NCBI GenBank assembly: GCA_021018815.1
Contig: JAITYX010000010.1
Location: forward strand, 744,001-808,000
DNA: 64,000 nucleotides
From: Talinum fruticosum
Taxonomy: Eukaryota; Streptophyta; Magnoliopsida; Caryophyllales; Talinaceae
Direction of reading: 5' to 3'
Below, piece by piece: positions 9,684 to 63,026 of the stretch (its first letter is position 1; each line of letters opens with the position of its first letter). Below the pieces are notes generated by a model. It searched no databases. It saw nothing but the letters and a program-made list of their open reading frames with translations, and was not told the DNA's origin. Position numbers and translations under genes: made by a program.

Positions 9684-10967
9684 TGATGTGTAGTGGGAGG
9701 CGGAAGCAAAAAGGAAGCAAGACCGTGAACAAGCAACCTGGCCAGAACAGGACCTGCAGGCGCGGCTCTGGGGAAAAGGGTGAAAAGAGGGGCAAATGAT
9801 CTTGGATTTGGACGAAATTTGGTGGAGGGTGAGCTAACTGGTTGGGGAAGGTTGTGGTAAAATTTGGGAATTTTTGGATAAGGGGAACACCCTGATCAAC
9901 AAGCCTGAAGTTGACAGTACCCGGCTGGATGAACAGATTGATACCCTTTGTTTGGTTTTAATGTGGAGGACGGAGAAGTTCTTGGATTCAGCTGAAATTT
10001 GGAGGAATGGAAGTAGATGGACTGGAAAGAAGGTGGTTAAAATTTGGATAAAAATGGCTGAGGGAATTGTGAGTTATGGGGCGGAAAAGTGAAGGGATAG
10101 AACCTTGACCCGGGCTCGCATACAGCAACACCACCGAGTGAATCAAGGGGCGCACCTAAGCGATCCGGATACAGCAACACCACCGGGACTTAAGTGACTC
10201 AAAGAACACCACCGTGAGGCCAAGCACGGATACAGATTTGAGGATTCAAAAGCGAGCAATCCAGCTCAAGAGTATTAACTCAAATATATTCATCAAAAAG
10301 TATTTTACAATGAAGCATATGAGCTGAATTTATAATGCCTTATCTTGGCATTTTACATAACCGAAAACCAAGCTGAAAATAATGCAAAATGAAAATAAAA
10401 CTAATTAGATTCTTTTCCCTTCCTCCAAGCTCAGCTATAGTGAATTCTAGCCAAGTATTCCAAAATTGGGAACATGTGGCCATTGTTTGATTTCCCTTTG
10501 GGCAAGCATCTAGCAACCACCTTCCTCCACTATAGTTAGTGGTTCTAGAATGCTCTTCATTTAGGCTACTCTTGGTCTTTTATTATGCACATGATCATAA
10601 GTCTTGGTCCCTTGATCCACCTTGATTTATTTATATGCAAGGGAAATAAAATGTAGCACTTGAAACATTCCACACGTCTTGACATGGCCGAGTTCAACAT
10701 AGCTTTAACAAGGAAGATTTTAGGCATGGCTGAATAAGCTCTTCTTGACTAACCTTCTTTAAACACTTATTTATGCACATAAGATCATAAGGATGACATT
10801 CTCAGCCTTTTAGCCTCCGGGCTCAATTTACACCAAGCGGTTAAACCTTAAGCATCTTCGGTTGCTCATAGAATAGTCAAGCTCTTCCAGTTGAACTTTA
10901 AGCACACATGACTTTTCAGGATGAACATTTATTCAGCTCAAGTCACAAGGCCGGCCACTTTCCATCG
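9684..10967 (-). mobile_element. Solo LTR, family T (T1)
   Basis: Sequence from TGATGTGTAGTGG to CTTTCCATCG, flanked by a perfect 5-bp duplication GTGAT at 9679-9683 and 10968-10972. The empty site is seen in the G1 5' LTR (TTTACGTGATACTC near 4308). The terminal A of CATCA is mutated to G. Element sense is minus, judged from the complete T element at 30165-35189. A solo LTR with intact TSD indicates LTR-LTR recombination after insertion. Confidence 0.95.
10103..10235 (-). other. Triple-hairpin leader domain, T1
   Basis: Plus-strand order H3-H2-H1. H3: CTCG/CGAG (10115, 10135) with outer CCTTGA/TCAAGG. H2: CCGG/CCGG inside CACCTAAG/CTTAAGTG (10153, 10189). H1: CCGTG/CACGG (10212, 10225) around a GCCA loop. 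The loops are the constant motif. Confidence 0.75.
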
Positions 10968-12130
10968 GTGATACTCAAAAATAGTTTCGAAAGGAGTTTT
11001 GTATTTTACGTGAATGATTCTTGAATGCAATTTCTTGAGAACCGCCTTTCGAACGTGATTATGTTTTAAAGAAGCGAGACTTGCTTGAGAAAATGAATCG
11101 GATTTGAGAAAGTGAATTTATAAGGGTGACACGTGATGTCATGCCTTCCTTCATACCAAATCGATTGAGAAAGTTGTGAAGTGAATGTGATGAATGAGTA
11201 TGTGCAAAGAGTTTTGAATCGACAGAGCTACGGATTGTTTAGCATACCGAAGGGTTCGAACCGGGGACGCCCAGCTACAAACTTCAAGGGAAGGGTTCTA
11301 ATAGGGGTCCCGCACAGGCAGGATGCCCGCCCGAGACTTCCTGAAGATAGGTCCCGGAGCCTTTTGTCGTGGTCGCGCCCGAATTAAAGAAGTTTTAGTT
11401 CGAGTCCTCGAAGGCCCGAAAAGTTGATTCAACACCAAAAGTATATTCATCAATTTGAAACTGTGTTTTTAAGTGATTGAAGAGTCTTGATCTTTTTCAT
11501 TGCAAGAGATTTCGGTGAAAAGTATATAGATTTCTATTACACTATTATGCTTTCGCAGATTTCATTATTATGAGTATTATGTGTAAAGAACTTCCTTTTT
11601 AAAGGTGTAAGACTCCGGTGAGCCCGTGGATTACTCGCTCACCCCCACAAATTCCCCTTTCCCTCCCCAGTGTTGCAGGTACACTTTCGGAGGCTTAATC
11701 GACGCTTACCATACTCCGGACTCTAGCCGACTACCGATGGTTGACTCAAGTGACTCAAGTGGCTGGCTTGCATTCTTATGTGTTTAAATGTTATATTTGT
11801 AATTTAGTTCATATAGTTGTACCCGATGTATCGTAAACCATTTAGATTGTTTTAAGTTTTATAGCATGATTGGTTGGACTCCGGCATGTGGCTCGTTGAG
11901 TTATATTATGCTTTTATGTAGGGTTTTAAGGCTTTAAGCCTATGGGTTGGTCCACATTACAAACAGAACTCTGCTGAAATTTTTAGGAAATCTCGGATCA
12001 TTTTGGAAAGCCATCTTTATTATCCTTTGATTGAGTCTAGACAACTAAACCGACACCGGAAGGAGCCTTAGGAGCTCCTTTAAGGAACTCTGGCGATGTA
12101 ATACTCCCGGGGGTGTTTTGGGGTGTTACA

Positions 12131-12144
12131 AATCTCCCCTTTTT
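12131..12144 (-). other. C1 polypurine tract
   Basis: Minus-strand AAAAAGGGGAGATT, the classic copia tract (CATCAAAAAGGGGGAGATT type), now abutting G1 rather than its own LTR. Its last five bases form the right TSD of G1. Confidence 0.9.
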
Positions 12145-16029: not shown

Positions 16030-16842
16030 TTACTTGTGAGATGAGTAACCCGTAAATATACCTTCATTTGACCTAACATCAAACTTGGTCAGGTGATCCT
16101 TACCATTATTGTGAACAAAGCACTTACATCCAAGTGGTCTTAAATATGAGATGTTGCGCTTCTTTCCCTTATAAAGCTCGTAGGGAGTTTTATTTAAGAT
16201 GGGTCCGATGAGGCATTTGTTCAGTATGTAGTTTGCTTGTGTTGATTGCCTCAGCCCGAAATAGTAAGGTAGATCATTTTCAATCATCATTTTCCTTCCT
16301 ATTTCTTCAAGAGTTCGGTCCTTTCTCTCCACTATTCCGTTCTGTTGAGGAGTTCTGGGTGCTGAAAAGTTGTGAGAGATACCGTTCTTGTCACGGAACT
16401 CTGCAAATTCCGAGTAGTCGAACTCCCTTCCATGGTCGGTTCGAATTCTTCTAATATGAGTCCGAGACTCCATTTGAATTTTCCTGTAGAGCTTGCTGAA
16501 CTCTTTGAAAGCTTCATTTTTGTTCTTGAGAAAACAAACCCGGGTAAATCATGAAAAGTCATCAACAATCACAAATACATATGATTTACCTCTAAGGCTT
16601 TTCACAGAGATTTCACCACATAAATCTATATGAAGCAATTCAAACACTTTGGATGTGGAAACAGTTTTGAGAGGTTTGAAGGATGATCCGACTTGTTTCC
16701 CTTTTGTGCATGTTTCATAGATTTTATCTTTCTTAAATGCACAGTTAGGTAAACCCCTAACTAAACCATGAGATGCAAGCTTTTTGATAGTATGCATGCT
16801 AACATGACCTAGTCTCGCGATGCCACGTCCAAGAATCATCAT
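16030..16842 (-). pseudogene. C1 copia integrase
   Basis: Starts with the GAG-pre-integrase segment (ARLGHVSMHTIKKL, then ETCTKGKQ; the first Cys of the expected CxxC is Tyr). Catalytic triad positions are visible: HIDLCG (D), RTDHGREF (D) and PQQNGIVERK (E). A single TGA (16549-16551) replaces the Trp normally found after DDFS; otherwise the frame is open to 16030. Integrase would join the cDNA to host DNA. C-terminal sequence continues after a shift below 16030. Confidence 0.88.
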
Positions 16843-18382: not shown

Positions 18383-20059
18383 TGATGTATCCTTGGAGTA
18401 AGAGGGAAAAGAGGGCAAAGAAGGGTTAAAGTACAAAGACACACACCGGGCAGTAATGGGTGTTTCGTGCGTAGTTCCGGGAAGTGGATGGATGGGGATG
18501 ATTTCGGTGGATTTTGGGCTTGATTTTTGAGAGGGGAAGGCTTAAGGGGATGAGGAAGACGTGGTAAAAGAGGGAATTAATGGAGGTCTGGAGCACCCTG
18601 AACTGAAGGCATACGATCAGCTCTATGCGTCCGGAATTCCAGGATGATACACCTTGATGGTTTTGGAGGAGGAGGCCAGGATAGAGCTTAGATTGAGCTG
18701 AAACTTGGCACACATCCACTTAACACTTGATAATGAAGTAGTAAAAAGATGGATAGCAAACGAGCTATATTGTGATAGAGGGGAATTTGTAAGTTGAGCA
18801 ACCGGATAGAGTTAAAACTGGATTAGGATAAGAAACACCACCTAATCTGATTTTAGGGCACCAAAGCAAGAATGAGATAAGAAACACTACTCACACTCAC
18901 TATGCACTTGTAAGATCACCACTCAGCTTGCCAAAGCTAAGATAAGCATACAAGAATTTGGGGTGAAGAGCACACAACTCACTCGGTTTTCATTCATAAA
19001 CATAAGCTTCTCTTTTACAAGCGTGAAGCCACTAGTATATATAATGCTTCAAAGTAGGATAGCTATGTACAGTCTAATGGCTATTAGAGCCTTACAATAT
19101 CAAGGGTGGGGATTACACAAGGAATAACCAAAAGAGGACAAAAAGAAAAGACTCCAGCTAGGGAACATGTGGTTCTTAATCTTGGAGCATTTCCGGCCAA
19201 GTATTTGTTTCCCCTTCCTCAAGCTCGCACTTTGATTGGCTGTAACTTTTGATTCCCTTCTCCAAATTGGACATGTAAGATATGCATGGAAATCTTGTAG
19301 AATAATCTTTTTAACCATATGTAGTTCAACCCATTTGAAGTTGTGAGCAAAAAGTTAAGACCGAATAATCAGCATAGGTCGGACTAGGTCAGCAAAAATA
19401 CCCGGTTTGAAACTTGGACCATTTTCTTTATTATCTCTGGCCTAAAAGACAATGCCCATAATTTTATATTAATTTAGACATGTCTAGGAATACCCTTGTG
19501 AAAATTGGAGACCAAAAGCTAATCCAAGGTTGATCGAAGACCCTTTTGAACTTGACTTTTAAGCGCCATTTTGAGTCTCGTAACTTCCAGTTTCGAGTCA
19601 ACTTCAAATGCTCATAACATGATATCCCCAACTCCAATTTAGCTATTCTTGTTATTGTTAGAAATCTTAGAATGTTATCTTTCCATCCATATATCATGAG
19701 TTATCTTTGGAGCTCTGGATCAGAAGATATGATCAAAACAATGTGTAGGTGTCATCCCGGATGCGTAAACTGCCAGTTTTAACAAAGGTCCTCCTCATTT
19801 ATTATCTCTGCCAAATACTGAGCTGCTCATAGTTGTCCTAGATAGAGGACATCTTTAGGTGCTTCCATGCAAAGTTTGAGGTTCAAACTCCAAGACATGA
19901 GTGACTAATTAGCGAAAAATTCAGCCTTTGAAATACCGGGCATGCCCGAAACATTCTAGCGCTTACAATAAGGCTCAAAACGAGTCTTGCCCAACTCATT
20001 CTTGTCTAGGATGGATTTGGGTTTATAGTATGTTGTCACCTCTGGGCACATCTCCATTA
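18383..20059 (-). repeat. V 3' LTR, 1677 bp
   Basis: TGATGTATCC...CTCCATTA (canonical CATCA with one change). The half near 19.5-20.0 kb matches, reversed, the LTR at 61357-63026. Confidence 0.8.
18821..18945 (-). other. Triple-hairpin leader domain, V
   Basis: H3 GATTAGG/CCTAATC (18821, 18841), a perfect 7-bp stem found in no other copy. H2 TGAG/CTCA (18873, 18890). H1 AGCTT/AAGCT (18925, 18934) closing GCCA. Confidence 0.75.
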
Positions 20060-20872: not shown

Positions 20873-22079
20873 TAATGTATAGCTCTACGTTCTGATGCCA
20901 AAGTTGATGTATAGCTAGGGTAGTTGGCAAAATAGGAGGCAAAACGCAAAGATGGGTGGCTGGGCAGAATGGGTCCTTTAGGTGCAGTCTTGGGAGATTG
21001 AGGTGATGGAGGGGTAAATGGTGGAGTTTGGAGGTGAAATTTGAGGGGGCAGCTCTTGGGAAGGTTAGGAAGGGCTGGTAAAAAGTGGGGGATCATTCGG
21101 GGTCGGGATCACCTCGAACTAATGGCTAAAACTATGTCTCGCTGAGCAAGCATCTAGGTTGACAGGCTTTGGGTATTTTGGTGGAGACGGGTGCTTGGAT
21201 TGAGCTCGGATTTGAGAGGGGATGACTCAAACTCGTCCGAGAGAAGTGTAGATGAAATTTGGGGTGCAGGTGATTTTTGGAATGGGAGATATGGATTTTT
21301 GAAGTTAAGTAACCGGATAGTACCAAGGTTCTCAAGGATACGAAACACCACCTTGAAAAGTCTTGAGGCACCTTTCACTTGGCTAGATACGAAACATCAC
21401 TAGCTAAGCTCAAGGACTCAAAAGATCACCACCAAGTTGCCAAACTTGAATACAGCATTTGAGGATTCAAAGGGGGAACGAGCACACAGCTCAAATTCTC
21501 ATTTCATATTCATCAAAAGTTGTTTTTCAAAGCTGAATACATTGAGTATTTATAGGCAATAAAAGCTTGCTGAAAATAAACTAAAGCTTAAAGCAAAAAG
21601 ATAATCAAAGGCCTAAATTAAGCTTCCCTTTCTCCAAGCCAAGATTGATCCAACACATGCTCTCTTCCACTAAGGATAGTGCTTGGGAATTCCTCTAGAG
21701 TCTTCTTTGGGGCAGCCACGAATTTCCAGCCTTGGTGACTGATTTTGAGGGACCGAACATGGTCATTTTTGTTCGGGCAGATTTGCGCATTGATGTTCGG
21801 TTTTAAACCGAATTGGACTCTTTGATAATTTTGGACTTCCCTTTGTGGCGTATAATGCTTCACTCCTTAAGCAACATTTATTTATGTACCAATTGTCATA
21901 GAATGATAATTTTCATGGCCCTTAAAATCTCTTCAAACTTTGGCTCGGTTTACACTACTTTGGCTAGCATAGGAGTTTTTTGTGAAAAATTGATTTTCAA
22001 ATAAGCTTGACTCCTCTTGTGCCTTTGCTTGAGAACCCCTGGACTCTTGGACGTTTGACTTGGATGGAAATATCCATCA
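20873..22079 (-). repeat. U1 3' LTR
   Basis: TAATGTATAGC...ATATCCATCA, 1207 bp. The first 32 bp contain a fossil primer site (GTTCTGATGCCA, 20889-20900) followed by a second LTR-like start at 20905. Confidence 0.85.
21324..21455 (-). other. Triple-hairpin leader domain, U1 3' LTR
   Basis: H3 CAAGG/CCTTG (21333, 21351). H2 CTAG/CTAG (21383, 21400). H1 CAAGT/ACTTG (21433, 21444) around TGCCAA. Confidence 0.75.
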
Positions 22080-26096: not shown

Positions 26097-27380
26097 TGAT
26101 GGAAAGTGGACAGCCTTCTGTTTTGAGCTGAATATTATTCATGATGAAAAGCTTTGTTTGCTTAATGGTCAACCGAAAATGTTTGCTTATTTTATGACCA
26201 AGGGGAAAAGCTCAAAGAACAAGCGCATGGTGCTAATGGATCCCGGAGGATGATGAGTCCGGATTATTAAGTTCTTATGATTTTGTTCATAAATAAGTAA
26301 TTACCAATTTAGTTGAGAAGGTTAGTGAAAGTAGCCACCTAAAATCTCCATGGTCAAGCAAGAAGGTTTGTTCTAGTCAAGACCGGAAATGTTGCTATGT
26401 TATGCTCAAGGTACATAAATAAGTTGGTGCTTACTATGGTCGGTCCATATTTGCTAATGGGAGACCTTGGCCGAATGATGGACAACAAAGGAAGATGATG
26501 ACAAAAGCATTTTAGAAGCATCAAGAATCAAGGAGCTTGGAGAAGGGGAAAACAAGCCTTAGCCACATGTTCCCAATTTTGGAATACTTGGCTAGAATTC
26601 ACCCTAGCTTGGCTTGGAGAAAGGGAAAGGAATATTGTTAGTTAGTATTTTATTTTTGCATTTTTTTCAGCTTGAATTCTGCTTACATTCGGTTATGTAA
26701 ATGCCATAGCAAGGCATTATAAATTCAGCTCTTGTGCTTCCTTGTAAATAACTTTTTGATGAATATACAAACCTTGAGTGTTACACTCTTTTTCGGGATG
26801 GATTTCTCGAGCCTCTAAATCCTCAAAGCTGTATCCTAGATTGGCATCTAGGTGGTGTCCTTTGAGTCTCCCAAACCCCGGTGGTGTTTCTGTATCCGGA
26901 CCGTTTGAGAGCGCCCCTTGATTCAGCTTGGTGGTGTTTCCGTATCCAAGCCAGAATCCAGGTTCTATCCAGCGACTTCCATCAACCATATCTCCCAATC
27001 CACGAATCATCTCTTTCCCAAATTTCACACACTTCATCTTACATGAGTTGAGTCCATTCCCTCCAAATCTCAGCTCAATCCAAGAAGAACTCCATCCCCA
27101 GCACCAAAAACAAACAAAGAACCTCATTCTGGACAGCCACCCAGTGAGGCTTTCTGTTTGCATTTGGCTCAAGGTGATCCCGACCTTGGATGCTGCCCAA
27201 ATTTTACCACAACCTTCCCCAACCAGTTAACTAACCTTCCACCAAATTTCGTCCAAAAACTCCATCATTTACCCCTCCTTTCACCCTTTTCCCCAGAACC
27301 GCACCTGCAGGTCCTGTTCTGCCCGGTTGTGTGTTTTGCGGTTTTTCCATCTTTTTCTTTGCTTCCACCACTACACATCA
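26097..27380 (+). mobile_element. Solo LTR, family T (T2)
   Basis: TGATGGAAAGTGG...CACTACACATCA, 1284 bp, TSD GGGCA at 26092-26096 and 27381-27385. Inverted relative to T1. Confidence 0.95.
26831..26962 (+). other. Triple-hairpin leader domain, T2
   Basis: H1 CCTAGAT/ATCTAGG (26835, 26846) with loop TGGC. H2 CCGG/CCGG inside CTCCCAAAC/GTTTGAGAG. H3 GCTTGG/CCAAGC (26926, 26946), outer CCTTGATTC/GAATCCAGG. Confidence 0.8.
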
Positions 27381-27599
27381 GGGCACCTCGAACTGATGGC
27401 TCAAAGTCTGTCTCGCTGGGTTGGAGTCCAGAATGACAGGCTTTGGGTGTTTTGATGGAGGGGTCAGACGGGTGCTTGGATTGAGCTGAGATTTGAGGGG
27501 GGTGACTCAACTCATGTTGAGAGGTGTGGGTGAAATTTTCAATGAAGGGGTTTATATTTTTGGAGTTTTGGATTTTTGAAGTTGGGTAACTGGATAGTA

Positions 27600-27732
27600 C
27601 CAAGGTTCTCAAGGATACGAAACACCACCTTGAAAAGTCTTGGGGCACCTCTCGCTTGGCTAGATACAAAAACACCACTAGCTAGCTTAAGGACTCAAAA
27701 GGACACCACCAAGTTGCCAAACTTGGACACAA
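27600..27732 (-). other. Triple-hairpin leader domain, U3 3' LTR
   Basis: H3 CAAGG/CCTTG (27610, 27628). H2 CTAG/CTAG around 27659-27682. H1 CCAAGT/ACTTGG (27709, 27721) closing TGCCAA. Confidence 0.75.
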
Positions 27733-31445: not shown

Positions 31446-31462
31446 TTCTCCCCTTGTAGGAG
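31446..31462 (-). other. T polypurine tract
   Basis: Element sense CTACAAGGGGAGAA, then LTR start TGATGG. The same tract form follows the LTRs of U1, U3, V and W. Confidence 0.9.
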
Positions 31463-31473
31463 AGAATTTGCCC

Positions 31474-32892: not shown

Positions 32893-32919
32893 CCTTCGCG
32901 GGTCACTTGGAGTTGGTAA

Positions 32920-33808: not shown

Positions 33809-33892
33809 GGCTGGGAAGTTTTTGTGGCTGGCTATTTTTGTGGTTTTTAATTTTTTGGGGAAATGGACACAATCACCCTAGGTTCAGAACTT

Positions 33893-33904
33893 GCTCTGAT
33901 ACCA
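33893..33904 (-). other. T primer-binding site (initiator Met tRNA)
   Basis: Element sense TGGTATCAGAGC, a perfect match, 4 bp from the 5' LTR. Confidence 0.95.
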
Positions 33905-33908
33905 AAAA

Positions 33909-35189: not shown

Positions 35190-35194
35190 CTTCT

Positions 35195-36185: not shown

Positions 36186-36317
36186 CCAAGGTTCTCAAGG
36201 ATACAGACAACACCACCTTGAAAAGTCTTGGGGCACCTCTCGCTTGGCTAGATACGAAACACCACTAGCTAGCTTAAGGACTCAAAGGACACCACCAAGT
36301 TGCCAAACTTGGATACA
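36186..36317 (-). other. Triple-hairpin leader domain, U3 5' LTR
   Basis: H3 CAAGG/CCTTG (36196, 36215). H2 CTAG/CTAG near 36248-36268. H1 CCAAGT/ACTTGG (36295, 36307). Confidence 0.75.
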
Positions 36318-44224: not shown

Positions 44225-46492
44225 CATGTTTAAACTCCCAACGTAGTTCTGCACTACAACCAGCCTCCAAACCTATAAAACGTGGACCTTTTCACATTTT
44301 CTAGCGCCCGAGTCTTGTAAGCATCCCCAGACCATGAAATATGGTTGTTTTTTCATACTTTCTTCTATCCGTATTTTCCACCCGACTTATCCTTTTAGCC
44401 AGAAGCTTGGGGGGTAGGTTTAGCTTTTTCAAAACCTAATTTTGTTTTCTATAATTAGAGGGGCCCTCCCATTTAAGACACCAATTTAGGTGCAAACTTG
44501 CCCTCATTCTACTTAAATGTTTCCCTCTTTTCTCTTTAATCTCTCTGACAAACACTTATACTTTGTTTGTCAAACCTCTCTCAAAAAAGCCCTTATTCTC
44601 AGCTTCATGTAACAAGCCCAAACTAATACGATCTAGTTAGCCAACTAAAGGAGATCAAGCCAGCAGAAGATTTTTTGATTTGGGAACATTATCGCCACTC
44701 CCTAAAAAGCAAGTAATGCTAGCAATAACAAAACCAAAAGCATTTAAGCATAAAATTTGCCGATCAAATTAAAACCAACAATGTTTTACAACTGATAAAA
44801 TTCACAAATCTGTAATCCAGTTTGGGGAACAACAACTAAAGAGCTTATAATGCAATATGCCTTTCCCTTTCTCTTTTCCATAATCTTCTTTAACCTATTC
44901 CATTTTTACTTTTAAAAACAAAACGGTTACAAAATAGATAAATACTAAATTAACAAAAGTTAAGCATGATACCCTTGCACGTGTAATATTCATTTCATAT
45001 ATAAACCATTGGAAATTCATTTATAAAACAACTCACACCAAAAGTGTTAGCTAACCATGTCATCATTTCACATATTAATCAAGCGATAATTGTACTGTAC
45101 TGTACGCATGCATCATATATCAATAATTACATATATTTTCGGTGCACTATTGTTGTATACGTGTAAAGCATTCATGTGTGATCGTCTTATACATGACAAT
45201 CATATGATCCACATCAACCACGTGACACATATAAATCATGTCTTCATATAACATATGCACTTTGAATAATAGTAAAAGAGACTGGCTAGCATAAAACATT
45301 AATATTGAAAACACTAACATAATTTAGAAAGGGTACAAGCAATATATGTACCTCTAGCTTCTTGTATTAAATGAATGTGTAAAATAATTTAGATACTTTT
45401 AGCATCATAAATATTTCTTATATATTTTTAGCTCCTTATTTAGGAACCCTAAACAACTTATGATCAAACTCTCCAGCTAATGACAATACAAGTCACAAAA
45501 ACCTCTACAAATCATGACCAAAAATCCCTTGATACTCATGTATAGTCTCAACTTGTTGCTGAAGATCAATCGCATGTTGTCACATAAATCCTTATATTAT
45601 CTTATCATATAATTTCCAACAGTATCTCAAGCTTGCCGAGACATATATCCATCTTTTAGAGCATAATTCAACTAGTAATTTCCTTTAGTCAACACTTCAC
45701 AAGCAAAGCAAAAGCAGTCCATCAATTTGTCCAATTTAATGCATATAGCTCTCGGTTTCATGCTTAATAAACATATCCCATTAACTTATAATTATTCCTT
45801 TAATCATCTTTTAATCATATATACTTGTATGAAATGGAACATACCTAAATTCCTTGATTATGTACTAAATCATGCTTAATTAAAGAGATAAACACAATTA
45901 AAACTCACGTAAGGTTGGGAGGTAAGCGCTTGTAACTGGATTAAGCCTCCAATTCTCGTGAGTTCTTCCCTCTCTCTCTCTCTACTTTGATTGCTTTGAA
46001 ATTTTAGTAGACATTGAAAGCAAACACATGCCTTATAAACTCCCATGATCATAATTACTTTGCTCCTATTTCATATACTGAAAACTGTGGGAGTGTAGGA
46101 GCCACAACTTGCGCCGAGTTTCCCCACAAATGTGGGCTTCACACAAGGTGTTATTATCAAGAGAACGATAACACTTTTGAAAGAGATTTTAAAGAAGGGT
46201 TGATCGACAATTTTTAGACATTGTTTCATTTTCCAAATTAGGTTTTAGAATTCCCGAGATCTATTTTTAAATAGATAAGATCAAAACAGGAATAATACCA
46301 CAAATCTCAACTGGGCTAGGCATTCAAAACTGCCTAGACTAAGAGTTGAGCCTAGATGGCGGCTTAGGGATAGGGAGCCAACCTACCGAAGTAGCTGACT
46401 AGTGCCAACCATCCGGACTGGACTATCGAGGTAGTCTTGATTAGATGGCTTGGACTGTTAGGGACTTTACCTTGTTTTATAAGTCTCGGTGT
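44225..46492. other. AT-rich interval, no supported gene
   Basis: No frame longer than about 70 codons has family features. There is a CT microsatellite (45970-45986) and possible splice-like signals, but no protein motif. It could be low-copy host DNA or old repeat. Confidence 0.5.
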
Positions 46493-47391
46493 AAGAAAAA
46501 CTGTGATGCAATTTAGGATTAAAAAAGATTAAAAGAGGAGTCGCCAGTCAGTCTTCGAATAAAAACTAACAAAATATAAAAAGCACTTTTCTAATTCTGA
46601 GTTTACCGGAGGGACAAGCGAAGGGACCATAACAAAAAATTAGAAATTTTTTTAAAAAGGACCAAAATCAATGATCCAGGTGTTCAGGGGCATTGGTACG
46701 AAATGAAGATGGATGCTCCACATTTCGCCCGTCAAAAGATTGCCTCTACTAATTGAAAAGGGAGTTTAAATCACTTTAAGAAAGACAAGCAATCAACATG
46801 CAAAAGGCGAAAACTAAAGCAATCAAAACATGATATAAAAGCGATAAATAAAAGCAATCAAGAAAGTGATAAATGAAAGCGATAAATAAAAGTTTACCAT
46901 ATGTTTTCAGTTTATGTTTAAGAAAAACTAAGATGCAATTTAGGATTAAAAACATTAAAAAGGGAGTCGTCAATCAGTCGACAAATAAAAACATAACAAA
47001 ACAAAAAGAAGCACTTTTTAATTATGAGTTTACGGAAGGGAAAGAGAAGGGACAAAACCTCCAAATTAGAAAAGGTTTTTTATAAAAGGACTTCATTGAC
47101 AAAAACCAATGATTTGGTGTTCGAGTGCGATGAAACGAAATGAGGAGGGACACTCCTCATGCTAAACTTCAAAAGATGGCCTCTACTAATTGAAAATCGA
47201 GTTTAAATCGAGATAAGAAAGACAGGGAATCAACATGCAAAAGGCGAAAACTAAAGCAATCAAAATAAGATGTAAAGCGATAAATAAAGGCAATAAAGAA
47301 AGAAATAAAGGAAAGTGATCAATATAATTACGTTAGGCAAGGTGAAAAAAAGATTACATCTTTAACCACAATACGGAAAGCAATAAGTAAT
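46493..47391. repeat. Tandem duplication, about 424-bp unit
   Basis: AAGAAAAACT(G/A)(T/A)GATGCAATTTAGG at 46496 and again near 46920, each followed by GGAGTCG(C/T)C and a GTTTAC(C)GGA(G/A)GG block. Two diverged copies; the second is followed by T5. Confidence 0.7.
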
Positions 47392-47396: not shown

Positions 47397-48661
47397 TGAT
47401 GGAAAGTGGACAGCCCTAGACTATGGACCGAAGGCAAGTCATCGAATGAGATCAAGCACACATGAAAATCAACTAGCCACACTTGAATTTCCTTTGTTTA
47501 TTTTTGAACTCGGAGGATAAAATGTCAAGAGTTTGGTCTTTCATGAATTCATGCTCATAAATAAAAGCTCATCCGAGGAGCTAAGTAAGATAGCCCAAAA
47601 GAATCAAGCTAGCCAAATTCTCCACGTTGAAGCAAGATGAGATTAGCCTTGTCAAAACCGTGAAGTGTCATTTGAACATAAATAATTTGATGCATGTTCG
47701 GCCGGTCCAAGGGATAATTTGCTGCATGTTCTAGGCGGTCCAAAGGTCCAAAAGAGCATAAGGTCACACGCCTAAGGAGAGCACTCAAGGGAGCCTAAAG
47801 GGGAGCATTCTAGAAGCACTCACCATGGTGGAAGATGGTTTGTTAGAAGCTTGCAAAAGGGGAAAACAAACCATGGCCACATGTTCCCAATTCACTAAAT
47901 GCTTGGCTAGAATTCATCCTACCTTAACTTGGAGAGGAGGAAAGCATCTTTATTATTTTTAGATTTCATTTTCAGCTTAGCTAAATGTTATTTTGTTGCT
48001 TATAAATTCAGCTCATATGCTTCATTGTAAAAACACTTTTTGATGAATATACAAACCTTGAGTGTTATACTCTTTTCGGGATGGATTTCTCGAGCCTCTA
48101 AATCCTCAAAGCTGTATCCTAGATTGGCATCTAGGTGGTGTCCTTTGAGTCACTTAAGTCCCGGTGGTGTTTCTGTATCCGGATCGCTTAGGTGCGCCCC
48201 TTGATTCACTCGGTGGTGTTTACGTATCCGAGCCGGGTCAAGGTTCTATCCAGCGACTTTACCATCCCATATCTCACAAACCACCCAGCCATTTCACTCC
48301 AAATTTTAACCACAATCCTTCCAGTCCATCTACTTCCATTCCTCCAAATTTCAGCCCCATCCAAGAACTCCTCCGTCCTCCACATCAAAACCAAACAAAG
48401 GGTATCAATCTGTACATCCAGCCAGCAGCGTCAACTTCTGGCTATCTGTTCAGGTAGTTCCCCTTATCCAAAATTCACGAAACTTGGTCACAACCTTCCT
48501 TCATCAGTTACCTCACTCCCCTCCAAGTTTCGTCCAAATGCAAGCACATTTACCCCTCCTTTCACCCTTTTCCCCAGAACCGCACCTGCAGGTCCTATTC
48601 TGCCCGGTTGTGTGTTTTGCGGTTTTTCCATCTTTTTCTTTGCTTCCGCCACTACACATCA
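47397..48661 (+). mobile_element. Solo LTR, family T (T5)
   Basis: TGATGGAAAGTGG...CACTACACATCA, 1265 bp, TSD GGTAA at 47392-47396 and 48662-48666. Confidence 0.95.
48114..48246 (+). other. Triple-hairpin leader domain, T5
   Basis: H1 CCTAGAT/ATCTAGG (48118, 48129). H2 CCGG/CCGG in CACTTAAG/CTTAGGTG (48151, 48187), all eight pairs formed. H3 CTCGG/CCGAG (48209, 48228), outer CCTTGA/TCAAGG. Confidence 0.8.
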
Positions 48662-53750: not shown

Positions 53751-55617
53751 CATATTCGGTTTGAGCTAGGGACATGGCATATTTTGGGAGGAGTTGGGAT
53801 TTTTTTGGGAAAAATAGGGGCTGGACAGAATAGGGATAGGGCTGAAACATGGGTTGGGCAGAGTGTGTTTAGGGGTGAAATGGGTTTCGGGTTTTGACTT
53901 TTGGTTTGTGGACTTGGGTTCTTTTGAGTAAGGTAAAAGTGGGAGGGATTATGGGCAATTTGTGGACATTTTTTGAGAGGTATGAGAGTCTCCATCATGG
54001 GCTAATCTCTTGTCAAACAATAATGGCCATTCCCAAAAAGCAAAGCAAGCACTCACAAGCATAGCAACATTCCACATCTCAATAATGCTTAACTTCACAA
54101 AGCCAAAAGAGATTAAGCTAGGATGAACAAAGTGGCTTATACCTTCATAAGGTCGTGGGATGTCACCTTGAGAGAAGTGGTTTGTGGCTTGAATCTCCAA
54201 ACTCCCATTGCTAGTAGGCTCTTCTACCTCACTAGACAATGAATGGAAGATAATACCTCCATACTTCTCAACTTCAAGAAATTCTTGGCCACAATCATCA
54301 AAGATGGGAAGTAGTTCATCTTGGCTTGAGTCTTCCTCATTGTTTGTAAGACTTAGACTCACAACTTGCTCCTCTTGAGGTGGGTTGGATATACCCAAGA
54401 TTTCTTACTCAACCACAACTTCACATGAAAAATGGTCATTGATTTCTTCCTCATTAGTAGATAAAGAAGTTTCTTCCAAAACATCTCCATCATGCTATCA
54501 AACTTAGGAGGCAAATCAAAATCATTTGTTGGTTGGCAAATATCCTCCAATGCACTTTCAACATACTCATCAAACTTTGGAGGCAAACCAAAGTTGGGCT
54601 CAAGTTTCTCTTGAGTAGGAAAAAGAGGGGCGGCCATGGGTTTTGGTGAGGGAAGTGGGGGTTCTTTTTGAGAGAGGGTGTTGGTTTTTGTGGAGGTTGA
54701 GAGGGCTGGGCCGAGGGCTTTGGTGGAGGAGAGAACGAGAGGGTTGAAGGCTTAGAAGGAGGGGAAGAATGACTCCCCTTGTTGATCAATTTGTCCTTGG
54801 TTGGAGGAAATTTGTAATGAAGTGGACCAAAATGTTTCAACAATTTTCCTCTCAACTTTCTCCATGTGTTCACCTTCTTTTTGCCTTTCTTCTTCCTTCT
54901 CATCTTGTAGGTTGTCCAGCAAGTGAAGGCATGACTCCTCAACTTAGACACAACAATCTCAACCTTCTCATACTCTTTTAAGCTCAAATTTGCAAAGGCT
55001 TCACCAACCCCGACAAACCAACTAGAAAATCGATCTTGTTGGCCATAAAATTTAGGGACAAGTAGACTAACCAACTTGAAGTTAGAATAGGCCATTTCAG
55101 CACTCAAATCCAAATGCAAAGTGGTGATCAAAGTGGTGAAAACGCAAAGATGGGTGGCTGGGCAGAATGGGTCCTTCGAGTGCGGTCTTGGGAGATTAAG
55201 GTGATTGGGGGTAAATGGTGGAGTTTAGAGGTGAAATTTTAAGGGGGGCTCTTGGGAAGGTTAGGAAGGGCTGGTAAGAAGTAGGGGATCATTCGAGGTC
55301 GGGATCACCTCGAACTAAGGGTAAACAGAATGTCTTGCTAGGTGGCATTCCAGGTTGATAGGTCTTGGTTGTTGTGGAGGAGGGGGTTAGAATACGGCTT
55401 GGATGGAGCTGAAATTTGGAGGGGGAACTCTTGAGGGAGTTGAGAAGAGGTGGTAAAAGTGGAGGTTCATTCAAGGTCAAACTAATGGCTAAAAGTCTGT
55501 CTCAGCGAGCAGAGCGTCCGAGTTGATAGGCTTTGGGTGTTTTGGTGGAGGGGGTCAGATGGGTGCTTGGATTGAGTTGAGATTTGAGGGGGATTACTCA
55601 ACTCGTCCAGAGAGATG
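53751..55617 (-). mobile_element. U4: truncated U-family element
   Basis: Closely follows U1 23610-24990 (gag and PR-like), then skips the primer site and LTR start and continues in LTR sequence from about 55139 (AAAACGCAAAGATGGG) to 55617. Both ends are truncated and no TSD is seen. It joins CACTA2 to unrelated AT-rich repeat. Confidence 0.75.
53755..55131 (-). pseudogene. U4 gag and PR-like region
   Basis: gag: PKFYGQQDRFSSWFVGVGEA, EKVEIVVSKLRSHAF, WRKLRGKLLKHFGPL. The acidic region shows a 1-nt loss near 54495 and TAG near 54405. The PR-like end FWEWPLLFDKRLAHDG is intact, including the Trp lost in U1. Non-coding now; useful for reconstructing family history. Confidence 0.65.
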
Positions 55618-55805
55618 TGCTTGCTTATTTGGATGCACATAAAGGGATGCAAAACAAATGAAATGGAATGTATGCATCGATGCTCATGACTTAATTTGGG
55701 GTGATTTTATGATTTGGCTAGTGCATAACTCGAAATGCATAGATAATTGATCCTAATGGAAGATGAATTTGTTTTGGCTAAATGAGAAATGAAAATGTAA
55801 AGTAG

Positions 55806-56738
55806 TGATGTATGCAAGCACAAACTGGCCAGAATAGAGGCGGCAAAGCTAATCAAAATGCGCACAAAATCGAAGAACGCAACGGGGTAGAAATCAAGCT
55901 TTCAATGGATAAGAAATCACCACCATTGTCAACTTGAGGCACCAAGGTATGGGTTGGATAAAAAACACCACCAGCTTGCTCCAAGGACTTGAAAGGTCAC
56001 CACTTAGTTTGCCACACTAAGATAAGCAATCAAGAGTTTTGAGGGTGAAGAGCACTTAGCTCATTCGATTTTCATTCATCAAAATTCAATGCTTACAATC
56101 GGGTATGGGGCGTATATGTAGTGCTTACAATGGGTGAAAGCAAAGCATCATCTAATGGCCATTAGGGGCCTTACATGATCAAGGGATGAGATTACATTAA
56201 GCATAGAGAATAATCCAAAGAGATGCTTCCACTAAGAGGGAACATGTGGACACAATTCATGGAGCAATTCTAGCTAAGTATTAGATTTCTTCTCCTCCAA
56301 GCTTCACTTTGATTGGCACTAGAATTTGATTCCCTCCACCAAATGAGGTGTTTTTAGATTCTTTAGAATGTTCCACACGTCTAATTTGCACCCATGTAGC
56401 TTGACTTTGCATTTGACCCTTCGAGCATTAACTTTTTGACCCTCAAAGACTGTTGCGCAGAATTGGCCCAAATTTGACTCGGTTTGCTTGTTTTGCCCAT
56501 TCTAGCCTCTTCCACTCTTATTCTTGGTTCAACTCCTAGGGACTTTTTATTGATATCAACATGGTCTTCATGATGGGAGTTTTAAGGCTCTCCTAACCCA
56601 TTGCTAGCTTGCTCAACTCGAATTATAATAGGTGACTTAACAACCGAAAGTTGATCTTCACTCCAAAGTAGCTCTTCTTGCACCTTTGCTAGTCAGCCAT
56701 GACTCTTAGTAGCTTTATTAGTTAGGAGGTCTCCATCA
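55806..56738 (-). repeat. W 3' LTR, 933 bp
   Basis: TGATGTATGC...GGTCTCCATCA, adjoining the polypurine tract. Left flank AGTAG is the expected TSD; its partner is outside the window. Confidence 0.88.
55894..56025 (-). other. Triple-hairpin leader domain, W
   Basis: H3 CAATGG/CCATTG (55903, 55923) with outer TCAAG/CTTGA. H2 GTTGG/CCAGC (55953, 55971). H1 CTTAGT/ACTAAG (56003, 56016). Stem sequences differ from all T and U copies, yet all pair. Confidence 0.8.
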
Positions 56739-56756
56739 TCCTCCCCTTATAGAGAA
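56739..56756 (-). other. W polypurine tract
   Basis: Element sense TCTATAAGGGGAGGA then LTR start TGATGG. Confidence 0.88.
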
Positions 56757-56775
56757 GAATTTGCCCTCAAATTCT

Positions 56776-57624
56776 CTAAGGTGTCATCTTCAAAGTAAGG
56801 TGATAGGTCAGCCACGTTGAAGCTCGCCGAGACTCCAAATTCTCCGGGAGATCAATCTTATAAGCATTGTCATTTATCCTTTCAACTATCTCGAATGGAC
56901 CTTCAGCCCTTGGCATCAACTTGCTCTTTCTCTTAGAAGGAAAGCGCTCCTTCCTTAGGTGCACCCACACTAGATCTCCGGGTTGAAAAATCTTCTTCTT
57001 TCTTCCCTTGTCAACTCGTTGCTTATGTGCAAGATTGGTGTGCTCAATTTTGGCCCTTACTTTCTCATGCCTTTTCTGTATTTCTTGCACCCTTTTGGCA
57101 GCCTCCATGTTAGGCTTTCCATCCATGCTTCTCGGTGCTAAGTCTAGAGGAGTAAGTGGTTCAACTCCATAGACTATCTTGAAGGGACTCATACCCATGG
57201 CCATGCTCGGAGCTCCATTGTATGCAAATTCAGCATGAGCAAGTAGTTGATCCCAAGCTTTCACATTGGTCTTGATCAAGGCCCTCAAAAGCACTCCCAA
57301 CATTTGATTTATGACCTCGGTTTGTCCATCCGTTTGAGGAAGACAAGTAGTGCTAAATTGTAGCTTTGTTCCCAATTTCTTCCAAAGAGTAATCCAAAAG
57401 TGGCTTAAGAACTTGCTATCTCGATCTGAAACCATGGATCTAGGAATACCATGGAGTTTAACAATCTCCTTGAAATATAAATCTGCGACATAAGTTGTAT
57501 CATTTGTTTTGTTGCATGGGATAAAATGAGCCATCTTGGAAAACCAATCCACAACAACCAGAATTGAGTCCTTGTTCCTTTGTGTCCTTGGCAAGCCTAG
57601 TATGAAGTCTAGACTCACATCTTC
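56776..57624 (-). pseudogene. W integrase core and C-terminal domain
   Basis: Catalytic positions are readable: VVVDWFSKMAHF (D), VSDRDSKFLSHF (D) and TDGQTEVINQ (E). The C-terminal part has FQPGDLVWVHLRKERFP and GPFEIVERINDNAYKIDLP, the usual gypsy GPY/F-like module, ending about 15 residues later without a chromodomain. The frame is open for 280 codons but is separated from the upstream half by TAG 57625-57627, where Trp stands in related proteins (QPWEDVSLDF). Confidence 0.88.
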
Positions 57625-58773
57625 CTATGGCTGTTTGGGGGTAGGAAGAGGTGTGTAGAGCCCTTGAGGAAAATAGTGACTCTTAGCCGATTGGCACACC
57701 AAATACCTTTTCAAGATGTCTTGCACGTCCTTATCCATATTGGGCCAAAAATAATGCTCTCTAAGCATGCTTACTATTTTGTTGACACCGAAATGGCCAG
57801 CCAAAGCTCCACCATGTACCTCTCGGATCAAGAGTTCCCTTGTACCACATTGTGGAATGCGCAACCAAGTGCCCTTAAAAAGAAAGCCATTTTGCACTAG
57901 GAACTCTCCTTTTGGATGATTTTGGCAAGCTTGATGCAGTTCTCCTAAGTCTTTATCACCAATGTACAAAGAATTTAAATGCTCAAAACCAAGAACATAA
58001 GACTCCAATTGAAACAAAAGAAGATACCTCCTTGACAAGGCATCTGCTCCCTTGTTCATCTTTCTAGATTTATGCTCGATAATGAAATGAAATGTTTGGA
58101 AGTATTCTACCCATTTGCCATGCCTTGGATTCAACTTATGCTGCCCTTGTATGTACTTGAGAGCCTCGTGGTTGAAATGGAGAATAAACTCACTAGCCAC
58201 TAAGTAATGGCTCCAATGCTCAAGCGATCGAATAATGGCATAAAATTCCTTGTCATAAGTTGAGTATTTTCTCCTTGAATCACAAAGCTTCTCACTAAAG
58301 AACGCTAGGGGTCGACCTTCTTGAGAAAGAACTCCTCCAATGCCTAATCCGGAGGCATCACATTCAACTTCAAAGACCTTATCAAAGCTTAGTAGGGCTA
58401 GAACCGGAGCTTGAGTAAGTTTGAGCTTGATTGTCTCAAAGGCCTCTTGAGCCTTAGCATTCCATTTGAACGAACTCCCTTTTAGCACTTCGGTCATAGG
58501 GGATGTGATAGTGCTAAAATCCTTAATGAACCTTCGGTAGAAGGAGGCCAAACCATGGAAACTTCGAACATCATGAATACTTGTGGGGATAGGCCAAGAT
58601 CTTATAGCTTCCACCTTACTTTCATCCACCTTTACATCTTGAGCCGTGACTATGTAGCCAAGAAAAGTGACTTCCGAGGCAAAGAAAGTACACTTTTGAA
58701 AATTGCCATAGAGCTTCTCTTCTTCCAACAATTTATGAACTTGTGTAAGGTGAGTTAGATGTTCCTCCTCACT
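57625..58773 (-). pseudogene. W RT connection, RNase H and integrase zinc domain
   Basis: After the RT thumb (LEEEKLYGNFQKCTFFASEV) comes RNase H: ECDASGLGIGGVLSQ, YDKEFYAIIRSLEHW, LHFNHEALKYIQ (usual SDHEAL, so the Asp is Asn) and KGADALSRR. The zinc domain then reads EVHGGALAGHFG and RYLVCQSAKS, with Tyr in place of the first Cys of CxxC. Open for about 380 codons. The start is at the X solo LTR boundary; codons shown above 58773 in this frame belong to that LTR. Confidence 0.85.
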
Positions 58774-60038
58774 TGATGTATAGTGAGGGTGAAAACAAAA
58801 AGAAGGGCAAAACCGCAAAGGGTTTGCTTGGATAGAAGGGGCCTGGAGGTGCGATCTTGGGAGAATGGGTAAATGAGGGGGCAAATGATGGAGTTTTGAG
58901 TGGAAATTTGGTGGAGGGCTTCTTAGATGATCCAAGAAGACCTGGTAAAAATTAAGGAATTTTTGGAAGTCGGGAACACCTTGATCCGGAAGCTGAAAGT
59001 CAGCGAGTTCTAGACCGGCCGCCCGAATGACACTCTCTGTATGGATCAAAGGTGGAGGTCGGAGGAGTTCTTGGATGGAGCTGATTTTTGGGAGGGGGAT
59101 AACTAGACAAGCGGGAATGGAGATGGACAAAATTTGGGGTGAAGTACATGAGTGAGCTGGGAGATATGGGATTACGAAAACAAAGTAACCGATAGGCCAA
59201 GGATCTCACGGATACGTAAACACCACCATGAAATGCCTTGGGGCACCTCTCGCTTGGCTAGATACGAAACACCACTAGCTAGCTTGAGGACTCAAAAGAA
59301 CACCACCAAGTTGCCACACTTGGATACGAAATTGAGGATTTTAAAGGGGCGAGCAATCCAGCTCAAAGTTCATTCATATATTCATCAAAAGTGGGTTCTA
59401 CATGGCTCATACAAGCTGAATTTATAATGCATCAAAATAGCACTTGACAAAGCTAAAAATAAAACCAAAAATAAAAAATGAGCTTTCCCCTTTTGCAAGC
59501 TAGAGGAGGATGATTTTCGGCCAAGCATTTGTGGAGCTAGGAACATGTGGATGAGAGGCTCTTTGCCCTTGTGCAAGCTTCCTTCTCATTTGTCCAACAC
59601 ATAATATTCCCTCCACTAATGGTAGTGCTCCAAGATGCTTCTAGAATGCTTGCATTCCTCTTCTTTTGTTGCTTCATTTTCGGCCAAGGCTTCATTTATG
59701 GACCGCCCTCCTTATTCATGTACTACATGACATGCTCGGATGTTGTAATGCACCAAACGAGCTAGAATGGACATTTTAGGTGTCCACTTGGTCCTTCTTG
59801 TAATAGCGCTAATAGCTCACTTTCATGCCTCTAACAACTATCCTTCACAGCTCTTCAAGTAACATTTATTTATGAACATAAAAAGATGATAATCTCGGTC
59901 CTTCAATCCCCGGCTATAACTTACATCATGAGGATTTTCATAGGAAATTCAAGTGCCCAAAATGGTTTCCCATGCATGTTTTTCCTTCCATGATGTTTAT
60001 CATTCGGCCCATAATCCTTGGCAGCCCACTCTCCATCA
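58774..60038 (-). mobile_element. Solo LTR, family X
   Basis: TGATGTATAGTGAGGG...ACTCTCCATCA, 1265 bp, TSD TCACT at 58769-58773 and 60039-60043. It splits W RT just after the catalytic YFDD box. Its distal third matches the end of the U3 5' LTR. Confidence 0.93.
59197..59328 (-). other. Triple-hairpin leader domain, X
   Basis: H3 TCACGG/CCATGA (59206, 59226; one mismatch) in outer CCAAGG/CCTTGG (59197, 59236). H2 CTAG/CTAG. H1 CCAAG/CTTGG (59306, 59319). Confidence 0.75.
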
Positions 60039-60660: not shown

Positions 60661-61356
60661 GTGTTTTGATTTGAGGAAAGACTCTCCTAAAGTAAGAAGG
60701 AGGTCGCTTTGGTTGGCAATTTTTGTAGCTTTGTTTTTCTGAGTTGGCTTGGGGTCAAGGGGGCTAAGGTGATCTTTTTCCCATCGTTGGTGAAAGTATA
60801 AGTGTTCATGAACCCATCATGTATAACTCTTCTATCAAATAGCCAAGGTCTCTCAAGCAACAAATGACAAGCATCCATAGGAATAATATCACACCATAAC
60901 TCATCATGATAATTCTTGCCAATACTAAATGAAATAAGACATCTAGAATTGACTTGAAGTCCTTTACCTTGGTTTAGCCATTGATGTTGTATGGGAGAGG
61001 ATGAACCGAAGCTATGAGTCCAAGATTTTCCACCATGCTTGAAGCGGCCACATTAGAACAACTCCCACTATCCATAATGATAGAATAAACTTTGCCTTGC
61101 GCCGTGCCTCTAGTATGAAAAATGTTATCTCGTTGCTCTTTCTTGGGTTCTTTGAATCCGCTCAAAGCCCTTCTCAAAACCAAAAGCTCTCCTTCATCCG
61201 CTTCCTCCCTACTTCCTCCATGTCCTCTATAAAGTAAAGCTCCTTTTCTGGTTCTTCTTCCTCCATTGGCAACTCTTGGTACTCGGCTAAAGTGATTGCT
61301 CTACGGTTTAGACATTCCGAAGAAATGTGTCCCAAGATTTGGCATTTGTAGCACCT
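60661..61356 (-). pseudogene. W zinc knuckle (3' part) and protease
   Basis: Zinc knuckle CYKCQILGHISSEC at about 61350-61309. The protease has IIMDSGSCSNVAASSMVENL (61060-61090 region), MDACHLLLERPWLFD and HDGFMNTYTFTNDGKK. Unlike T (DGGS) the active site is DSGS. Frameshifts near 61190 and 60980-60880 break it. The T protease is clearly related. Confidence 0.82.
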
Positions 61357-63026
61357 TGATGGAAAGTAGCCCAGCAATGATCACATACTACAAACCCAAA
61401 TCCATCCTAGACAAGAATGAGTTGGGAGAGACCCGTTTTGAGCCTCATTGCAAGTGCTAGAATATTTCAGCCCAGCCCGGTGTTTCTAAGGCTGAATGTT
61501 TTAGCTAATTATTCACTCATGTCTTGGCATTTGGACCTCAAACTTTGCATGGAAGCACCTAAAGATGTCCTCTAACTAGTCCAATAATGGGCATCTTAGT
61601 ATTTGGCGGAAATAATAAATGAGGAAGGTTTTTATTGAAACTGGCAGATTGCTCATTCAGGATGACACCTGCACTTTGTTTTGATCATATCTGCTGATCC
61701 AGAGCTCCAACGATACCTCATGATACATGGTTGGAAAGCTAACATCCTAAGCTTTCTATCCATACCAAGAAGAGCTAAAACGGAGCTGTGAATCAAAAGT
61801 TATGAGCATTTGAATTTGACTTAGAAAACTGGAAATCACAATTCCAGAATGGCGCATGAAGGCCAAATTCAAATGGATGATCAGTCAACTTTGGATAAGT
61901 TTTTGGTCTCCAAATTTAACAAGAATATTCCTGGACATGTCTATATTAATTATGGGCAATGTCTTTTAGAGCCAAGAAGAATAAATCAAGCTAGACATCA
62001 AAGTTCCCCAAGTTAAAGGATGAAGCTACGACCGGACATGTTAAGGCATGGAATATTATTTTCTTTCACACATAAATAAGTTGATGCACATTTTGGTCGG
62101 TCCAAGGCTTTGATGCAATGTGTTTAGACATCCCAAAATGATGCAACAACGGAAAGGAAGAAAGACCCTCTAGAAGCATCTTGGAATATTATGTGTTGGA
62201 GCAATGAGAGCAAAGCTTGCCAAAGGGAAACAAGCCACGGCCACATGTTCCCAATTTTGCAAATACTTGGCTAGAATTCCTCCTAGCTTAACTTGGAGGA
62301 GAGGAAAGAATCTTTGTAATTTTTGTTTTATTTTTCAGCTTTGTAAAGTGCCATTTTTAGGCACTATAAATTCAGCATGCACACATGATGTAAAAACAAC
62401 TTTGATGAATTTATAAACTTTGAGTATTATACTTTTTCGAGATGGATTTCTCGGCCCCTTGAATCCTCATTGCTGTATCCTAGTTGGCTACTAGGTGGTG
62501 TCCTTTGAGTCCTTCCAATCTTCCGGTGGTGTTTCCGTATCCGGCCAGATTGAAGGTGCCCCTTGGTTCCCTCGGTGGTGTTTCAGTATCCGAGCTAGGA
62601 CCTTGGTTCTATCCAGCGACTTTCCATACTCATATCTCCCAATCCACCAATCATTTCCTCACCAAATTCACCCACACCAACATACATGAGTTGAGTCCAT
62701 TCCCTCCAAATTTCAGCTCAATCCAAGAAGAATTCCGTCCCCACCTCTCGATCCAAACAAAGGTTATCGGTATGGACATCCAGCCCAGTACTTGCTCACT
62801 TCAGGCATGCAGATCAAGGTGTTCCCGACCTCCAAAAATTTCCATATTTTTACACGACCTTCTTGGACCAGTTAATAACCTTCCCACCAAATTTCAGCCA
62901 CAAACTCTTCCATTTGCCCCTCCTTTCACCCTTTTCCCCAAGATTGCGCCTGCAGACCCCAATCTGCCCGGGTAGTCTTTTTGGGTTTTTCCCTTCTTCT
63001 TTTGCTTCTGCTCCCACTATACATCA
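61357..63026 (+). mobile_element. Solo LTR, family V-like
   Basis: TGATGGAAAGTAGCC...CACTATACATCA, 1670 bp, TSD CACCT at 61352-61356 and 63027-63031. The first about 640 bp match the V LTR (reverse), the rest is T-like, so the LTR is mosaic. It splits W gag at the zinc knuckle. Confidence 0.93.
62473..62605 (+). other. Triple-hairpin leader domain, V-like solo
   Basis: H1 CCTAGT/ACTAGG (62479, 62490). H2 CCGG/CCGG in CCTTCCAATC/GATTGAAGG (62511, 62548). H3 CTCGG/CCGAG (62571, 62590). Confidence 0.8.

Follow-up and report, generated by a model that had tools for sequence, protein, structure and literature searches.

How plant long terminal repeat (LTR) retrotransposons choose the RNA that they package, and how elements without enzymes borrow them, is poorly known. 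A 64,000-nucleotide stretch of the Talinum fruticosum genome (contig JAITYX010000010.1, positions 744,001 to 808,000; here called the window, from whose first base all coordinates are counted) raises this question, as fourteen of its LTRs carry the same domain of three adjacent hairpins, H1, H2 and H3. A first-pass annotation of this DNA had described the hairpins in several LTR families and suggested a functional RNA that acts in packaging, dimerisation, translation or strand transfer. Here we found that the stems of the domain covary in aggregate beyond two phylogeny-aware null models and that all three hairpins are built around one two-strand motif, and among the four suggested roles we favour packaging.

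Fourteen LTRs carry one three-hairpin domain

All fourteen domains were found where they had first been placed, one per LTR, each about 150-160 bases long and in element sense. A covariance model built from the fourteen returned exactly these matches in the window up to E = 10, all of them end to end and with scores of 110-169 bits. For the loop pattern TGGTGTTT-n-GTAT, 18 exact matches were found, compared to 0.08 expected by chance. Since the domains f30k and g34k, from the two LTRs of one element (element T), are identical, there are 13 distinct sequences among the 14. At the gathering score, Rfam gave no match in the window; at a lax threshold, one T domain gave three, the best with E = 0.21 and 14.7 bits compared to a gathering score of 40. 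The core pattern, with 17 specified bases, had 7 matches in viral contigs and 61 in prokaryote genomes, at one site each, and the 40 of these 68 loci that were scored with the covariance model reached at most 22.3 bits. The double-motif pattern and a reverse transcriptase/RNase H query had no match in the viral contigs.

Element T holds g34k in its 5′ LTR (34317-34476, minus strand; H1 at about 34468-34425, H2 at 34422-34379 and H3 at 34371-34327) and f30k in its 3′ LTR (30573-30732, minus strand). Five domains lie in solo LTRs with TGATG...CATCA termini and exact 5-bp duplications: d26k (26816-26973, plus strand; LTR 26097-27380, duplication GGGCA), i37k (37579-37735, minus strand; LTR 37174-38400, TAAGT), j43k (43273-43434, plus strand; LTR 42638-43842, TATTA), k48k (48099-48254, plus strand, 168.8 bits; LTR 47397-48661, GGTAA) and m59k (59186-59342, minus strand; LTR 58774-60038, AGTGA). 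Domain a10k (10092-10248, minus strand, 152.1 bits; H1 at about 10240-10197, H2 at 10196-10153 and H3 at 10147-10103) also lies in a solo LTR (9684-10967, duplication GTGAT), the first base of which is changed (CGATGG); the empty site of this insertion is kept in a related repeat copy at 4309-4313. Family U has c21k (21312-21469), e27k (27589-27746) and h36k (36174-36332), all on the minus strand. Family V has b18k (18801-18960, minus strand, 110 bits; H1 at about 18952-18907, H2 at 18903-18861 and H3 at 18854-18811) and l55k (55881-56040, minus strand). The last domain, n62k (62460-62617, plus strand), lies in an LTR whose 5-bp duplication matches at best at 4 of 5 bases.

The hairpins share one motif, which is permuted in H1

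From 5′ to 3′, the region consists of a TATA-like box, the sequence TGATGAAT, one or two small hairpins (H0), H1, H2, H3 and a G-poor stretch. The box is present upstream in 14/14 copies; its distance to H1, whose start is taken 11 nucleotides before the inner stem, is 87-114 nucleotides, slightly less than the 100-150 nucleotides first reported. In the 5′ LTR of element T the box lies at 34555-34561 (minus strand), about 94 nucleotides before H1, and in l55k it is the weaker CATATAC. By eye, TGATGAAT is exact in 11/14 copies and differs at a single base in b18k, f30k and g34k. The stems of H0 vary between copies (GAGC/GCTC, GAGT/ACTC, GAGA/TCTC) around a loop that is mostly TGGATT; in l55k H0 was recognised by eye only, and in the 5′ LTR of T two such hairpins, TGAGT...ACTCG and GAGC...GCTC, have bases in common (34484-34511, minus strand).

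The two-strand motif GUAU/UGGUGU recurs in each of the three main hairpins, which consist of an outer and an inner stem arranged around it. In H2 and H3, the inner stem sits on the outer one and closes a loop with the pattern UGGUGU-UUC-n-GUAU. In H1, the motif strands sit between the inner and the outer stem and flank the stem instead of forming the loop: GUAU stands immediately 5′ of the inner stem (exactly in 11/14), UGGUG immediately 3′ of it (14/14), and the apical loop contains GGC (14/14). In all three hairpins UGGUGU is attached to the variable stem by its 5′ side and GUAU by its 3′ side, which makes H1 a circular permutation of the H2/H3 module. The outer stems, the permuted motif and the small upstream hairpins go beyond the first-pass annotation, which had also called the loops fixed; they are nearly so. 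TGGTG is found in H1 and H3 of all 14 domains and in H2 of 12, and the loop variants are TGGTGTTGCTGTAT in H2 and H3 of a10k and i37k, TAGTG and TGATG, each in H2 of a single copy, and TTAT for GTAT in family V. On paper, the motif strands could form a UG bulge plus the pairs G-U, U-A, G-U and U-G in three dimensions, with standard pairs in 149 of 151 lettered cells (107 of them wobble); as the motif columns are mostly near-invariant, this arrangement is only a proposal. The GGC of the H1 loop and the GCC of the H2-H3 linker are both invariant in 14/14 (34371-34468 in T) and could pair; because they never vary, a contact between them is neither supported nor refuted.

In the 200 nucleotides downstream of the domain, G makes up 10-15% and the sequence is mostly rich in C (23-36%) in 13/13 copies. 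This composition would suit a leader RNA that acts in translation or nuclear export, in which the domain and the G-poor, C-rich stretch recruit export or initiation factors. The cauliflower mosaic virus leader is a parallel for export, and the structured leaders of plant pararetroviruses recruit TREX according to a review (PMC12786077). A role of this kind does not require the same motif three times, however, and there are 0 to 3 ATGs in the downstream 200 nucleotides, so the copies share no upstream-frame layout; we consider it unlikely. Open frames of about 150-180 codons start in or near the domain and are likely an effect of the G-poor composition.

The stems change in both arms and keep pairing

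Inner stems were scored in a fixed register anchored on the conserved motif. TGGTGGTG holds alternative TGGTG anchors; as a check of the register, an anchor-free MAFFT alignment agrees with the motif-anchored one. The inner stems pair at 194/196 positions in the 14 domains (70/70 in H1, 55/56 in H2 and 69/70 in H3) with many two-sided changes, and the earlier claim that both arms change while still pairing holds. Counts of this kind, here and below, are biased in favour of the structure, since it was drawn from the same sequences. When the distinct 3′ arms were dealt among the distinct 5′ arms, p was 0.0025 for H1, 0.016 for H2 and 0.00025 for H3. In the MAFFT alignment, which was made without structure, 87.1% of 644 cells are paired compared to 76.7% in shuffled alignments, and 75 cells have two-sided changes compared to 31.6; 0/500 shuffles reached either value, and one of the five measures, further pair types, was reached by 36/500. 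The H1 outer stem is the weakest, with 70.1% of its cells paired. When ten of the 14 domains were folded singly (all except e27k, g34k, h36k and i37k), the minimum-energy folds, by reading, contained the inner stem of H1 in 10/10, that of H2 in 8/10 and that of H3 in 9/10.

Columns were then simulated on the tree of the domain and on the tree of the flanking LTR for all stems except the H1 outer stem. The inner stems have 180/182 cells paired and 37 two-sided changes, and 0/3000 simulations reached these values on either tree; the highest null values were 166 pairs and 30 two-sided changes for the domain tree and, for the flank tree, 159 and 22. For the outer stems of H2 and H3 together, 178/234 cells are paired, which 0/2000 simulations reached on each tree. 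Among single stems on the domain tree, the H2 inner stem is weaker (pairing p = 0.016) and the H3 outer stem is marginal (pairing p = 0.04, two-sided changes p = 0.06).

The structure also carries over to sequences that did not contribute to it. A model was built from 11 sequences and their RNAalifold structure, without family V and with g34k left out as a duplicate. With this model l55k scored 79.4 bits and b18k 66.4 bits, compared to 44.9 and 22.9 bits with a sequence-only model, which is a gain of 34-44 bits from structure between models whose effective sequence numbers differ somewhat (1.54 and 1.83). Since the V copies score higher with a structure taken from other families, that structure predicts V pairing.

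Elements that carry the domain

Element T (30165-35189, minus strand) is flanked on both sides by the duplication CTTCT and has two LTRs of 1281 bp each (30165-31445 and 33909-35189) with TGATG...CATCA termini. The LTRs are 99.6% identical, which marks T as a young element. The primer binding site TGGTATCAGAG (33894-33904, minus strand) adjoins the end of the 5′ LTR. A gag open frame (32838-33614, minus strand) matches Retrotrans_gag and Ty3_capsid; among the 120 of its 257 relatives that were listed, those with an organism name are from Cuscuta campestris and Artemisia annua, in line with a likely plant host. The second open frame (31477-33033, minus strand) contains a CCHC zinc knuckle with E = 0.0036, which is below the Pfam cut-off, and a protease-like stretch recognised by eye; gag and the knuckle are in different reading frames. 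No reverse transcriptase, RNase H or integrase match was found in the two long frames searched, and none in the three-frame translation. For the C-terminal 290 residues of the T frame, the database gave a single weak relative, which covers 18% of the query. An open stretch at 35015-35194 spans the start of the T LTR and ends in ...DDGFQNH, which is reminiscent of CRM group A frames that enter the LTR. TR-GAG elements are Gag-only plant elements like T, and we know of no leader RNA described for them.

The domain is also found beside enzyme genes. The end of a reverse transcriptase, RNase H and an integrase, with Ty3-type domains, lie at 56776-58779 (minus strand); the integrase frame stops at 56776 and is followed by a purine tract and then by the LTR start TGATGG at 56738. 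This LTR (55139-56738) carries l55k and lies between the integrase gene and a gag-like frame, with a V-type first part joined to a U-like tail (55139-55619). V is not a proven gag-pol element, since reverse transcriptase, RNase H and integrase are established for it but a gag of its own is not. The earlier statement that both autonomous and non-autonomous families keep the domain stands in that T and an LTR next to reverse transcriptase and integrase genes both have it, and V is not established as the autonomous partner. The solo LTR of m59k interrupts a reverse transcriptase gene, and the RNase H and integrase that come after this insertion are those of the element whose integrase stops at 56776.

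The LTR of h36k (family U) ends in CATCA and is followed by TGGTATCAGAGC, and TGGTATCAGAG adjoins the LTR ends of both T and h36k; we take it to match the initiator tRNA-Met. In the 7 elements measured, the LTRs are 1205-1284 bp long, six of them above 1225 bp. The CRM clade, in the portion of the Neumann 2011 survey available to us (PMC3059260), has TGATG/CATCA termini, 5-bp duplications, a tRNA-Met primer site and LTRs of 299-1225 bp, a range that is not a strict rule; that portion mentions no leader structure. The elements here share the termini, the duplications and the primer site, and differ in that most LTRs are slightly longer. The group A trait, a polyprotein that runs into the 3′ LTR, is absent at l55k, where the integrase stop at 56776 precedes the LTR start at 56738. 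Judged from these sequence features, the elements are CRM-type and not proven members of CRM.

Several nested solo LTRs of one clade are thus found within 64 kb. At 62183-63803, the plus-strand LTR of n62k stands beside a minus-strand gag frame related to T gag, at a rearranged or nested junction. Elsewhere in the window, an open frame at 16033-16548 has integrase core and SH3_retrovirus matches, and this integrase is unlike that of the other element; two adjacent copies of about 400 bases that are 80% alike lie at 46489-47324.

The host LTRs are mosaics

Over 55620-56760, l55k matches the U and W copies only at 55895-56084, which is the domain and about 45 nucleotides before it, with 69-75% identity. 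In the same LTR part b18k matches l55k only; at their tails, both V copies match U-type LTRs. A coarse search had given V-type LTRs no match outside V around the domain, and the finer search aligns l55k with U and W copies over the domain.

Eleven LTRs, all outside family V, were compared segment by segment. The nearest relatives of f30k are d26k in U3, the upstream part (0.92-0.93), n62k in H1-H3 (0.90-0.93) and i37k downstream (0.89-0.92). In k48k, H1 is the same as that of d26k, H2 is closest to that of a10k (0.98), and the far end is again closest to d26k (0.89). The flank tree and the domain tree differ. The LTRs near 10.1, 26.8, 30.6, 37.6, 43.3, 48.1 and 62.5 kb are mosaic, and the switches of relative lie in places at or near hairpin borders. 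Mosaic LTRs are expected if RNAs of different families are packaged together, and they suggest that such RNAs may have met in one particle.

Discussion

As a whole, the best explanation in our view is a shared packaging-type leader RNA, whose motif array would be read by a Gag knuckle and through which enzyme-less and enzyme-bearing elements would be co-packaged; we give it about an even chance. The domain, starting 87-114 bases after a TATA-like box, would likely enter the 5′ leader of the element RNA, given where transcription probably starts. The leader would fold as three adjacent two-tier hairpins, each of which would offer the same motif to Gag's zinc knuckle. Elements that lack reverse transcriptase and integrase could then have their RNAs packaged together with those of elements that encode them, and template switching between these RNAs could produce the mosaic LTRs. 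With one motif repeated three times in tandem on stems that are free to change, the domain resembles a protein-binding array, and its presence both in T, with gag and knuckle, and in an LTR behind an integrase gene is what one would expect of a tag that Gag reads in trans.

Several results weigh against this reading. In an R-scape-like null of our own implementation, only 3/49 pairs reach E < 0.05; with 13 sequences, a pair-by-pair test has little power. Covariation beyond phylogeny, on which the suggestion of a functional RNA was to be tested, is borne out in aggregate on both trees and, pair by pair, for these three pairs only. No homologous domain was obtained beyond the window from the viral contigs and prokaryote genomes searched. 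The U-like tail and the gag-like frame behind the l55k LTR mean that this LTR may be common to two elements and not a plain 3′ LTR. The mosaics could instead come from recombination between nested DNA copies, which is also raised for grass CRM recombinants (PMC4079200); these have been read either in this way or as possible co-packaging. A 6-base palindrome (TACGTA) is present in the loops of only 4/14 domains, which argues against a conserved loop-loop dimerisation site. Most folding energies do not stand out, with z between +1.05 and -2.86 in the ten domains, and against mononucleotide shuffles the mean z is better for the antisense strand (-2.0) than for the sense one (-0.43). Strand-symmetric counts of G-U and A-C are 47:49, or 14:10 where flanked by Watson-Crick pairs, so wobble asymmetry is no proof of sense.

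The few individually significant pairs are also what shared descent with recent exchange of modules between LTRs, and with little current function, would give. Under this explanation, the mosaic LTRs reduce the 14 copies to fewer independent histories, and l55k can still be aligned to U and W copies. However, in this part of the LTR l55k resembles other families only over the domain and the short segment before it, b18k matches only l55k, and motif and pairing persist nonetheless; together with the gain from structure in the held-out V copies, this leaves mere descent very unlikely in our judgement.

The strand counts are compatible with an element that acts as DNA, in which dyads in centromere-type LTRs form cruciforms or position nucleosomes and palindrome-templated repair keeps the arms matched. 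In wheat, CENH3 is associated with the LTRs of Cereba and Quinta (PMC11302176). A folded single strand is a better match for long conserved loops whose stems are arbitrary, for the permutation of the motif and for the constant position downstream of the TATA-like box, and in the inner stems G-U exceeds A-C by 5 to 1, a small count; we give the DNA-level explanation little credence. The sense strand has the lower folding energy in 10/13 sequences, and we infer that sense RNA is the acting strand mainly from the position after the TATA-like box and the motif.

The good folding of the antisense strand relative to shuffles would also suit hairpins that serve as pausing or strand-transfer sites for reverse transcriptase, in the RNA or in the minus-strand cDNA, and that are conserved for efficient template switching. 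The nearest relatives do change near hairpin borders, between H1 and H2 in k48k and after H3 in f30k, but other apparent breakpoints lie outside the domain, and pausing does not need a fixed UGGUGU motif. Such a role seems quite unlikely to us.

We return to the packaging-type leader in its more specific form: a new RNA family, a packaging tag of three protein-binding modules of which one is permuted, that CRM-type families with enzymes and those with gag only would have in common as a passport into each other's particles, with modular recombination of their LTRs as a consequence. This form is tentative, and we would sooner doubt it than assert it. Its closest likeness is to HIV-1 SL2 and related retroviral packaging hairpins, where adjacent 5′-leader hairpins expose a GGUG-type loop and nucleocapsid knuckles bind the guanosines of the SL2 GGUG loop (PMC7599994); T likewise encodes a CCHC knuckle. 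Unlike SL2, the domain has three copies of one motif, one of them permuted, with a loop of 13-15 nucleotides instead of a tetraloop, and lies inside the LTR; we claim no sequence relation, and binding is a prediction.

A second likeness, by published description, is to the CRM-type pair of wheat, in which the autonomous, enzyme-bearing Cereba and the non-autonomous, gag-encoding Quinta share termini, a primer site and an LTR half that starts near the TATA box (PMC11302176). In the main text of that paper, this half is read as promoter and terminator signals, and "packaging" and "secondary structure" occur 0 times; an RNA-level reason for it is possible by analogy. In barley, the RNA of a BARE partner unable to make Gag is packaged into particles; BARE1 and BARE2 differ from the present elements in being Copia-type, and the available text assigns packaging to a transcript class and names no packaging hairpin (PMC3735527). 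The four motif strings and two reverse complements that we looked for were absent from the open-access papers searched, which also held no description of a plant LTR element of this kind, in agreement with the first-pass annotation. Structured retroelement leaders are already known as a kind; what appears to be new is a module, repeated and permuted, in the LTRs of plant-type elements.

Because the module is compact and has a covariance model, the choice of RNA by plant LTR retrotransposons becomes testable, through genome searches, prediction of the families that would mobilise each other, and binding assays with small RNAs. It may also explain, at the level of RNA, the recombination of centromere-type elements and their retention of the same LTR half.

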